Source: Candidatus Polarisedimenticolia bacterium
GTDB taxonomy: Bacteria > Acidobacteriota > Polarisedimenticolia > Gp22-AA2
Length of the DNA: 40,328 bases
Direction: 5' to 3'
Assembly: GCA_036001465.1 (NCBI GenBank)
Contig: DASYUH010000075.1
Coordinates: 1 to 40,328 of the forward strand
Position numbers and translations under genes: made by a program. This document shows positions 22,476-35,774 of this stretch, one piece after another. Below the pieces are notes generated by a model. That model was not told the origin of the DNA. It worked only from the letters and a program-made list of their open reading frames with translations, and searched no databases. Positions within the stretch are counted from its first letter, which is position 1, and every line of letters starts with the position of its first letter.

Positions 22476-22610
22476 GAGGCCGGCGTGACGGCCGGTTCGA
22501 GCCCCGCGCGATGCGAACCGCCAAACCCGGTCAGGCCCGGAAGGGAGCAGCCGTCAGGAGGACCTCGCAGGCGCCGCGGGTCCGCTTGAACCGGCCCTCA
22601 GGCCGGCCTC
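22476..22610 (+). ncRNA. ffs: Signal recognition particle RNA, small bacterial type (4.5S)
   Basis: The universally conserved domain IV core is present, GGTCAGGCCCGGAAGGGAGC then AGCC, which binds Ffh. The long helix is closed by complementary ends: GAGGCCGGC (22476-22484) with GCCGGCCTC (22602-22610) and GGCCGGTTC with GAACCGGCC, with a few mismatches. Helix ends place the RNA at about 135 nt; the mature 5' end could be a little downstream. SRP RNA targets membrane proteins to the translocon. It lies just before dnaX-ybaB-recR, a conserved arrangement. Confidence 0.92.
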
Positions 22611-32226: not shown

Positions 32227-34173
32227 ATGAGCCGGCCCGCCCCGTCGGTCCGCTGGTCCGCCGTTCCCGTCCTGCTCGCCCTGCTCGCCGCCTGCGCCCA
32301 CTCCGGCGGGCCGCCCCGGATCGCCGCCTCCCCCGAGGCGTCGCTCGCCGCGGCGCCCGAGTACTCCATCGAGGAGTTCCTGGGAACGACCCGGATCCTG
32401 GGCGCCTCGTTCTCGCCCGACGGCCGCACGATTCTGTACAGCTCCGATCAAACCGGCGTGTTCAACGCCTTCGCCGTCGCCGCCGCCGGCGGCCAGCCGG
32501 TGCAGCTCACCCGCTCGACGGAGGATGCGATCAGGGCGGAGTCCTATTTTCCGGCGGACGAGCGCTTCCTGTACACCAGCGACAAGGGGGGGAACGAGCT
32601 GACGCACCTCTACGTGCGCGAGCGGGACGGGTCGGTGCGCGACCTGACGCCGGGCGACGGGGTCAAGGCGGAGTTCCTCGGCTGGGCGCGCGACGACCGG
32701 ACCTTCTTCGTCAGCACCAACGAGCGCGACCCGAAGTTCTTCGACCTGTACGAGTACCAGACGGACGGCTACGCCCGGAGCCTGCTCTTCAAGAACGACG
32801 CGGGCTACAAGTACGGCGACGTCTCCCCCGACCGGACGACCCTGGCCCTCTCCAAGTCGCGCACCACCAACGACAGCGACGCCTTCCTGCATGTCCTGAA
32901 GACCGGGGAGACCAGGAACATCACCCCCCACAAGGGGGACGCGCTGAACCGGCCGGCGCGGTTCACCCCGGACGGCCTGGGGCTCTACCTGATCAGCGAC
33001 GAGGGGAGCGAGTTCGCCGGCCTGGCCCTCTACGATCTGAAGACCGGCGCGCGCCGCCCCCTGGTCAGGCCTTCCTGGGAGGTGACCGAGGCCGAGATCT
33101 CGAAGAGCGGCCGGTACCTGGCGGTCTCCATTAATAATGATGCGCGGACCGAGCTCCGGCTGTTCGAGGCCGCCTCGATGCGCCCGGTCGCCCTGCCGGA
33201 CCTGCCCCGGGGGGCGATCAGGACGGTCACCTTCTCGCGCGACGAGGAACACCTGGCGTTCCATGCGAGCGACAGCCTGACGCCGCGGGACCTCTACGCC
33301 ATGGACCTGGGAGGAGGGGCGCCGCGCCGGCTGACCCGCTCGCTCAATCCGCGGATTGACCCCAGGAACCTGGCCGAGGTCGAGGTCGTGCGCTTCCCGT
33401 CCTACGACGGACTCGAGATCCCCGGCCTCCTCTACCGGCCGCACGGCGCCTCGTCGCGCCATCCCGTGCCCGCCATCGTCAAGGTCCACGGCGGTCCGGG
33501 GGGCCAGGCGCAGATCGAGTACAGCGGCCTGACCCAGTACCTCGTCAACCACGGCTACGCGGTGTTCGACATCAACAACCGTGGCAGCAGCGGCTACGGG
33601 AAGACCTTCTTCGCCCTGGACGATCGCCGGCACGGCGAGGCCGACCTGGGAGACGTCGTGGCGTGCCGCACGATGCTCGCCGAAAGCGGCTGGGTCGATG
33701 CGAAGCGGATCGGCATTCTCGGGGGGAGCTACGGCGGCTACATGGTCCTGGCGGCCCTCGCGTTCAAGCCGGGCACGTTCGCGGTCGGCGTCGACCTGTT
33801 CGGCGTCGCCAACTGGGTGCGCACCCTGGAGAGCATCCCTCCGTACTGGGAGTCCTTCCGCGAGGCGCTGTTCGCCGAGCTGGGGGATCCGAAGGCGGAC
33901 GCCGAGCGGCTCCGCCGCATCTCCCCGCTGTTCCACGCGACGAACATCAAGACGCCGCTCATCGTCCTGCAGGGAGCCAACGACCCGCGCGTCCTGAAGC
34001 CGGAATCGGACGACATCGTGAAGGCGGTGCGGGCCAACGGCGTGCCGGTCGAGTACGTCGTCTTTCCGGACGAGGGGCACGGATTCCAGAAGAAGGAGAA
34101 CGAGCTGGTCGGCTACCGGGCGATCCTGGCGTTCCTGGACCAGCACCTCAAGGGCGCCGCCGCGGGTGGGTGA
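32227..34173 (+). CDS. Prolyl oligopeptidase-family (S9) lipoprotein peptidase
   Basis: 648 aa. The N-terminus SVRWSAVPVLLALLAACAHS has a lipobox (LLAAC), so it is a predicted lipoprotein. A beta-propeller region (WD40/TolB-like repeats: FSPDGRTILYSSDQTGVFNA, RFLYTSDKGGNELTHLYV) occupies residues 50-390. The C-terminal alpha/beta-hydrolase has the triad S501 (GGSYGGYM), D586 (GANDPRV) and H618 (DEGHGF). It should be an aminoacyl/dipeptidyl-type peptidase acting outside the cytoplasm. The gene end overlaps the next start by 8 nt. Confidence 0.95.
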   Translation: MSRPAPSVRWSAVPVLLALLAACAHSGGPPRIAASPEASLAAAPEYSIEEFLGTTRILGASFSPDGRTILYSSDQTGVFNAFAVAAAGGQPVQLTRSTEDAIRAESYFPADERFLYTSDKGGNELTHLYVRERDGSVRDLTPGDGVKAEFLGWARDDRTFFVSTNERDPKFFDLYEYQTDGYARSLLFKNDAGYKYGDVSPDRTTLALSKSRTTNDSDAFLHVLKTGETRNITPHKGDALNRPARFTPDGLGLYLISDEGSEFAGLALYDLKTGARRPLVRPSWEVTEAEISKSGRYLAVSINNDARTELRLFEAASMRPVALPDLPRGAIRTVTFSRDEEHLAFHASDSLTPRDLYAMDLGGGAPRRLTRSLNPRIDPRNLAEVEVVRFPSYDGLEIPGLLYRPHGASSRHPVPAIVKVHGGPGGQAQIEYSGLTQYLVNHGYAVFDINNRGSSGYGKTFFALDDRRHGEADLGDVVACRTMLAESGWVDAKRIGILGGSYGGYMVLAALAFKPGTFAVGVDLFGVANWVRTLESIPPYWESFREALFAELGDPKADAERLRRISPLFHATNIKTPLIVLQGANDPRVLKPESDDIVKAVRANGVPVEYVVFPDEGHGFQKKENELVGYRAILAFLDQHLKGAAAGG

Positions 34174-34936
34174 CCTGGGCGAGTTCTCGCCGGCGACCCG
34201 CCTGTTCCTGAAAGCCTACCCCTGGCGCCGGATCGACCCCGTCCCGTGGACCCCGCTGCGAAAGCCCCTGGCCGTTTGCCGGCTGGCGCTGGTCTCGAGC
34301 GCCGGGTTCGTGCTTCCCGGCCAGGAGCCGTTCGAGGCGTCGATCCGCGGAGGGGACGTGTCGTTCCGCGACATCCCCTCCGACGCGCGGGCCGCGGCGC
34401 TCATCGACACGCATCGGAGCCGGTCGTTCGATCACGAGGGCATGCGGCTCGACCCGAACCTCGCCCTGCCGCTCGACCGGGCGCGCGAGCTGGCCGCCGC
34501 CGGCCGCGTCGGCTCGGTGAACCGCCGCCACCTGTCGTTCATGGGCTCGATCACCGCCCCGGGAAGGCTGGTGCGCGACTCGGCCCCGCAGGCGGCGCGC
34601 CGGCTCTCGGAGGACGGCGTCGACGTCGCCCTGCTCATCCCGGTCTGACCAATGTGCACCCAGGCGGTCGGCCTGGCTGCGGCCGAGCTGGAGCGGCAGG
34701 GGATCGCGACCGTGGCGATCCAGCTCCTGCGCCACGTCGCCGAGCGGGTCCGCCCGCCACGCGCCCTGTGCGTCCCCTTCCGGCACGGCTACCCGTTGGA
34801 TGCCCCCGGCGATCCGGCGCGGCAGATGGCGGTCATCGAGGCGGCGCTCCGGCTTCTCGAAGAGACGGAGGCCCGTCCGCCGGTCCTGCGTGACTTTCGG
34901 GCGAACTCCACCGACCGGCCGGACCCGCACGCGTAA
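34166..34936 (+). CDS. GrdB-like (glycine/betaine/sarcosine reductase family) protein; predicted selenoprotein (Sec161)
   Basis: 256 aa when the in-frame TGA at 34646-34648 is read as selenocysteine. Upstream: PWTPLRKPLAVCRLALVSSA, GGDVSFRDIPSD, PLDRARELAAAGRVGSVNRR, SEDGVDVALLIPV. Downstream in the same frame: PMCTQAVGLAAAELERQGIA. Together they form the GrdB-like signature LLIPV-U-PMC, i.e. a UxxC redox motif, where relatives (from knowledge of the family) have Sec or Cys. A SECIS-like hairpin follows. The GTG start at 34166 overlaps the peptidase stop. Gene callers will split it into a 160-aa protein and a 94-aa one starting at ATG 34652. These small cytosolic relatives lack the full reductase complex, and their substrate is unknown. 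Confidence 0.85.
34646..34676 (+). promoter_or_regulatory. UGA codon plus SECIS-like hairpin
   Basis: The TGA at 34646-34648 is followed by a 6-bp perfect stem CCAGGC (34660-34665) and GCCTGG (34671-34676) with loop GGTCG. The loop starts 17 nt after the UGA and opens with G, as required of a bacterial SECIS. Confidence 0.7.
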
Positions 34937-35411: not shown

Positions 35412-35774
35412 ATGCCGAAGCCGCGTCTCGAGATCGCCTACTGCACCCAGTGCCGCTGGCTGCTGCGCGCCGCCTGGATGGCGCAGGAGCTCCTGACCAC
35501 GTTCGAGGCGGAGCTGGGCGAAGTTGCGCTGCGCCCCGCGACGGGGGGCGTGTTCGACGTGATCCTGGACGGCGAGACCCTCTGGTCGCGGTCGAAGCGC
35601 CGGCGCTTTCCGGACATCAAGGAGCTGAAGCAGCTGGTGCGCGACCGCGTCGCGCCCGGGAGGAATCTCGGTCACTCGGACAGGAAGCCGGTCCGTCGTC
35701 ATGCTTCGGGCCCCGCGCCGGGGGGTCGCAGGCGGCGGACAGTCAGGTCTGGACGCCAAACCGTGGCAGGATGA
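35412..35774 (+). CDS. SelW/Rdx-family thiol-redox protein (Cys form)
   Basis: 120 aa. IAYCTQCRWLLRAAWMAQEL places C11 and C14 in the CxxC position where SelW family members carry CxxC or CxxU; LRPATGGVFDVILDGETLWS and ELKQLVRDRVAPGRNLGHSD complete the Rdx fold, which usually ends near residue 95. Here a basic tail rich in Arg and Gly continues to 35774; it overlaps a possible small gene on the other strand. No UGA is needed. Following a GrdB-like selenoprotein it extends a short selenium/redox cluster. Confidence 0.9.
   Translation: MPKPRLEIAYCTQCRWLLRAAWMAQELLTTFEAELGEVALRPATGGVFDVILDGETLWSRSKRRRFPDIKELKQLVRDRVAPGRNLGHSDRKPVRRHASGPAPGGRRRRTVRSGRQTVAG

Follow-up and report, generated by a model that had tools for sequence, protein, structure and literature searches.

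The stretch of DNA analysed here (termed the window; 40,328 nt of a Candidatus Polarisedimenticolia genome) carries on its forward strand, at 34166-34936, two open reading frames, 34166-34648 and 34652-34936, that share a common frame and are divided by the TGA at 34646-34648. Translation of this TGA as selenocysteine (Sec, U) joins them into a single product of 256 residues, ...GVDVALLIPV-U-PMCTQAVGLAAAELERQG..., reading ...DVALLIPV-U-PMCTQAVG... around the UGA. The joined gene begins with GTG, in an 8-nt overlap with the stop of the S9-type peptidase gene that precedes it, and ends with TAA at 34934-34936; the model is drawn from the ORF pair, a match to the Pfam family GRDB and the start region MGDL/MGEF...RLFLKxYPWRR, which is homologous in relatives. 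The UGA, assigned as Sec161 (34646-34648, forward strand) from column conservation in homologues, opens a UxxC motif, UPMC, whose Cys164 (34655-34657, forward strand), the presumed resolving cysteine, fills a nearly invariant column of a 38-sequence alignment. Downstream of the motif, at 34660-34676, lies a hairpin. The sequence-only reading of this DNA had placed both ORFs in one frame across LLIPV-U-PMC and had noted a 6-bp hairpin with loop GGTCG 11 nt past the UGA; both observations agree with the gene model given here.

Beyond this gene comes a NUDIX-type gene and then, 0.5 kb downstream (35412-35774), a gene for an Rdx protein of the SelW/SelT/SelH family, whose motif CTQC has Cys in place of the Sec found in the CxxU of selenoprotein members. 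Elsewhere in the window, a bacterial small SRP RNA gene (RF00169, 67.7 bits) occupies 22495-22594, just upstream of a dnaX-like gene. Another in-frame TGA, at 2136-2138, marks the first candidate selenoprotein of the window, in a gene running from about 1479 or earlier to 2318 whose read-through product, ...VVLYCT-U-PNEATSARAALLLHRRGITRVRPLLGG..., would combine a DedA-like membrane protein with a rhodanese domain. NF041203, a model for rhodanese (seleno)proteins, spans this UGA at 87 bits (cut-off 115), and a candidate hairpin, GAGCGCC-CGGGC-GGCGCTC, is found at 2153-2171, where the MFE fold favours other pairs.

Conservation of the UGA

Homologues were collected from 396 genomes of the phylum at E <= 1e-10; 101/396 genomes had one, and UGA-containing homologues were present in 64/396. 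The residue aligned with Sec161, taken over 75 sequences that include the window, is UGA in 55, Ser in 9, Cys in 7, Asp in 2, Glu in 2 and Trp in none. With the window set aside, UGA occurs in 54 of the 74 homologues inspected and Cys, Ser, Asp or Glu in the other 20; these counts come from homologues that are not fully independent, the UGA clade being mostly from one phylum. In a quick tree (SH-aLRT support), all 37 members of the window's branch (37/37) have UGA (support 95; 35 with support 97), and sequences with Ser, Cys, Asp or Glu lie on other branches. Several branches of the tree are long, which leaves the fine placement unsure. All residue states together require 6 changes on this tree, as against 19.3 when shuffled.

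Cys at the Sec site is seen in named aerobes (CPVC in Roseomonas, CPIC in Haematobacter), and the PrdB of Peptoclostridium acidaminophilum has UGA, in the motif UGTC. This is a pattern used to recognize bacterial selenoproteins, with UGA kept across homologues and Cys in others. The Sec/Cys alternation that the sequence-only reading had stated for this family is borne out by the alignment, yet Cys is not the sole substitute, Ser, Asp and Glu occurring as well. The Ser sequences (L077-L085) keep Cys164 (SRLC); both redox residues are gone from those with Asp or Glu (L089-L091 and L096; DALS, EVLS). Most hosts of the Ser, Asp and Glu forms retain SelA, so these forms do not reflect a simple loss of the Sec pathway. 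One homologue (L065, genome G221) has two in-frame UGAs, UPIU, possibly with Sec at both ends of the UxxC.

The part of the gene on each side of the UGA was compared with that of the nearest relative (86% identical). Values of dN/dS of ~0.25 before the UGA (0.073/0.287) and ~0.19 after it (0.073/0.378) indicate that both halves are under purifying selection, and by this comparison the part downstream of the UGA is shown to be translated.

The SECIS hairpin

The hairpin, CCAGGC-GGUCG-GCCUGG, has a stem of 6 bp (34660-34665/34671-34676) and the loop GGUCG (34666-34670); its spacer from the UGA is 11 nt, and the loop begins 17 nt past the UGA. A bacterial SECIS is modelled as a stem of 4-16 bp with a loop of 3-9 nt, G within the first two loop positions, a spacing of 16-37 nt from the UGA and an MFE <= -7.5 (PMC13188914); the hairpin at 34660-34676 falls within all these limits, with an MFE of -17.1 kcal/mol. 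In one sequence alone, such a hairpin would not have been evidence. Taken singly, the sequence from the window folded with an energy no better than that of shuffled sequence (z = -0.17), an unremarkable value that is expected in GC-rich DNA, and covariation was therefore tested instead.

Across 42 distinct UGA homologues, 99.6% of the stem cells are paired, and 4/6 pairs vary at both of their positions. The covariation score is 0.470, compared with 0.184 +/- 0.019 when shuffled, where 0/500 shuffles scored as high, and with at most 0.114 in slid registers. The most telling pair joins the first base of codon 167 (the sixth codon after Sec) to the third base of codon 169 (the eighth): codon 169 is mostly Gly, and the UGA homologues combine ACN with GGT, GCN with GGC and TCN with GGA. 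In non-Sec homologues (12 Ser/Cys sequences with equal spacing and 8 others) pairing is at chance level, and the structure is therefore selected only where a UGA needs recoding. On covariation and model fit we annotate 34660-34676, on the forward strand, as a bacterial SECIS upper stem-loop. SelB carrying Sec-tRNA-Sec would bind this hairpin just past the UGA, and selenocysteine would then be inserted at position 161 in place of termination.

Selenocysteine machinery of the host

The host genome, a draft assembly of 114 contigs rated 100% complete, encodes SelA (541 bits), SelB (347 bits) and SelD (364 bits), along with a tRNA-Sec (SelC) that scores 73.9 bits, above the Rfam cut-off, and that ARAGORN also reports, with anticodon TCA. 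The full set SelA/SelB/SelC/SelD used to recognize bacteria that make selenoproteins is thus encoded. The host SelD gene has an in-frame UGA of its own, in GGUAAK, the usual Sec site of SelD. Across the sampled genomes, SelA was found in 62 of the 64 with a UGA homologue and in 190 of the 332 others (Fisher p = 1.7e-11, a value that ignores the relatedness of genomes); the two UGA-bearing genomes where SelA was not found, G114 and G228, are 91% and 77% complete. TGA is an ordinary stop in 11/11 nearby genes checked, and recoding is therefore local. A change of code to TGA=Trp was rejected on the same 11/11 genes ending in TGA and on the occurrence of Trp in no homologue.

Explanations other than recoding fare poorly. 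That a recent nonsense UGA arose in a dead or mis-assembled gene, or by sequencing error, might be suggested by a lone UGA dividing an otherwise intact frame of a draft assembly, but it has a negligible chance of being right, given the identical UGA in dozens of independent assemblies, among them relatives of 86% and 79% identity, and purifying selection on both sides of the UGA, and a pseudogene was already refuted by the UGA standing at a common alignment column. Only slightly less improbable are two separate proteins, the first stopping at the UGA and the second restarting at the ATG at 34652, with halves that may reassociate. Coupled reinitiation is physically possible, the ATG lying 4 nt past the UGA (UGACCAAUG), but at the restart site ATG is the codon in only 28/50 UGA homologues, the rest having ACC, TTC, CTC, AAC, GAG, AGG and others. 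The restart codon is thus unconserved whereas the UGA and the hairpin are conserved, and the non-Sec homologues are continuous single ORFs across the site.

We regard it as near certain, from these comparisons, that 34166-34936 is one gene whose in-frame UGA is decoded as selenocysteine. The sequence-only reading had proposed as much and had named the checks that the proposal should face: its call of Sec has held up against the same UGA column in 54 other homologues, stem covariation in a hairpin that also fits the bacterial SECIS model, and a complete set of sel genes (tRNA-Sec, SelA, SelB and SelD). Neither of the outcomes that it said would count against Sec, homologues ending before the UGA or an absent selenium pathway, was encountered.

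Family assignment and partner subunits

The joined protein matches Pfam GRDB (PF07355) at 31 bits, passing the gathering cut-off of 22, although of the 347 model positions just 202-344, towards the C-terminus, are covered. The best of the curated NCBI models is that of PrdB, TIGR04483, whose score of 117 bits falls far below its cut-off of 300, and models of the GrdB type come next, likewise under their cut-offs; the N-terminal ORF contributes 86 bits by itself and the C-terminal ORF 16 bits, and the joined match is continuous through the UGA. GrdB (TIGR01918) scores 37 bits against a cut-off of 65.45, over the C-terminal part only rather than the full length (~430 aa), where canonical full-length GrdBs of a genome from the same phylum (G376) score 454-476. 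The label 'GrdB-like' that had been given to this protein is therefore confirmed at the Pfam level by alignment with the GRDB family, while its best curated match is PrdB.

Canonical GrdB acts together with GrdE, and canonical PrdB with PrdA, as its partner subunit; glycine reductase also needs GrdA. No PrdA (TIGR04480) match was found in the host genome, rated complete as above, nor any protein of the GrdE/PrdA type (PF09338), which occurs in only 2/396 genomes of the phylum, G140 and G376. These two, the sole sampled genomes of the phylum with canonical Grd operons, carry glycine/sarcosine-reductase-type clusters with GrdA-like and full-length GrdB proteins; their PF09338 proteins were recovered by the search, for which they serve as positive control; the G376 cluster (L117) comprises a thioredoxin-like gene, GrdA, two GrdB and two GrdE-type genes, and that of G140 is represented by L118 and L119. 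The GrdA model PF04723 matched nothing in the host genome, but it matched no control genome either, the GrdA of G376 being recognized by NF040748, so that the missing GrdA counts for less than the missing PF09338. Over 23 related loci, leaving aside the gene and its antisense frames, the flanking genes are conserved only with a same-genus relative, and a few frames are common to L024 and L025; the neighbourhood therefore gives no operon clue. Since the protein lacks the N-terminal half of GrdB and no partner subunit of either enzyme was found in its genome, neither enzyme name should be transferred to it.

GrdB has a homologous C-terminal domain with Sec at the equivalent place, but it is ~430 aa long, with an extra N-terminal half, and adjoins GrdA and GrdE. 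Clostridia PrdB (TIGR04483) shares with the window protein a short form (about 240-256 aa), the Sec position in UxxC and a PP/APR...G motif in the C-terminal part; the window protein differs in scoring less than half the curated cut-off and in having no PrdA or PrdABC operon, and its motif UPMC differs from the UGTC of P. acidaminophilum PrdB, to which it is ~32% identical. Proteins of Roseomonas and Haematobacter annotated as 'glycine/sarcosine/betaine reductase selenoprotein B family protein' have the same domain and, like the window protein, are not accompanied by a reductase operon in the few kb examined, but they have Cys rather than Sec (CPVC/CPIC), a longer C-terminus (about 300 aa) and 30-35% identity. 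A further related group comprises the UxxC pfam07355 selenoproteins of the Sargasso Sea and GOS surveys, labelled proline reductase PrdB (PMC1088965, PMC2398784). These marine metagenome proteins resemble that of the window in family, in Sec within UxxC, in a SECIS after the UGA and in having Cys homologues; the window genome, however, has no PrdA/GrdE-type subunit, and the enzyme name is therefore not carried over.

A true PrdB, the D-proline reductase subunit of Stickland metabolism, is accordingly an improbable identity for this protein. It would account for TIGR04483 being the best curated match, for the agreement in size (256 aa and 238 model positions) and for the placing of the marine UxxC proteins in PrdB by the surveys cited above. 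It is opposed by the shortfall of that match (117 bits against 300), by a genome without PrdA or a PF09338 protein while the G376/G140 control matched, and by an identity of only 32% to the annotated P. acidaminophilum PrdB with its UGTC motif. A 2026 review counts both GrdB and D-proline reductase among verified selenoprotein families (PMC13188914), and what is new here is one more Sec protein of an already known selenoprotein family.

Proposed chemistry

The best explanation of the locus, to which we assign a probability of roughly 85%, is a single 256-residue selenoprotein with Sec161 inserted by SelB and the SECIS, a partnerless oxidoreductase of the GRDB superfamily whose chemistry is inferred from its sequence. 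Reductive cleavage has been proposed for GrdB and PrdB. By analogy, Sec161 would act as the nucleophile that attacks either a small substrate (reductive cleavage) or a disulfide, Cys164 would resolve the adduct to give a selenenylsulfide, and a thioredoxin-like dithiol would recycle the enzyme. The product would be a soluble oxidoreductase that works without a pyruvoyl-type partner (GrdE/PrdA) and without GrdA, and for that reason it is probably neither a Stickland proline reductase nor a glycine reductase. The residues D64, R68, D96, N98, R199 and G208, near-invariant in the 38-sequence alignment, suggest a pocket for a polar small molecule.

Structural searches were of little help. AlphaFold2, given 4 sequences, returned a model too poor for use (mean pLDDT 41.6, pTM 0.49). 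A PDB search with the single protein sequence gave no match, and one with the 38-sequence profile gave only marginal matches of E 0.02 or worse (diphthine synthase and designed proteins), which we judged to be chance. With a poor model and no solved homologue found, the mechanism is thus drawn solely from the motif and from family analogy.

The strongest competitor, less probable but deserving of consideration, is an ordinary oxidoreductase acting on thiol-disulfides or peroxides, with UxxC serving as a thioredoxin-type motif and with no reductive cleavage of amino acids or comparable substrates. The motif itself, the lack of a partner and the wide spread of these proteins favour it, as does the commonness of thiol oxidoreductase activity among UxxC selenoproteins (PMC13188914). 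The family sequence, however, is not thioredoxin-like, and the invariant D64, R68, D96 and R199 persist in Ser/Asp/Glu members without the redox pair, a pattern more in keeping with a site that binds a small polar substrate.

Significance

Partnerless UPxC GRDB proteins may constitute their own class of selenoenzyme, widespread in the phylum, with no pyruvoyl subunit and with a substrate that is neither proline nor glycine, and much of what surveys call 'PrdB' may belong there; for this wider proposal we see about even odds. No paper on a partnerless PrdB or GrdB was found in the searchable literature, which leaves most subscription journals outside it. As far as those papers show, two points are little appreciated: nearly all such proteins in the phylum are without a partner subunit, and in side branches the Sec site is occupied by Ser, Asp or Glu. 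Were the class to be real, these Ser/Asp/Glu sister lineages would mean that the scaffold has a non-redox job too. The coupling of codons 167 and 169 is a clean example of RNA structure constraining protein-coding sequence. For annotation the consequences are direct: standard gene callers turn the selenoprotein gene at 34166-34936 into two false genes, and its relatives are named proline or glycine reductase though the subunits are missing, so that correct annotation removes a false claim about energy metabolism.
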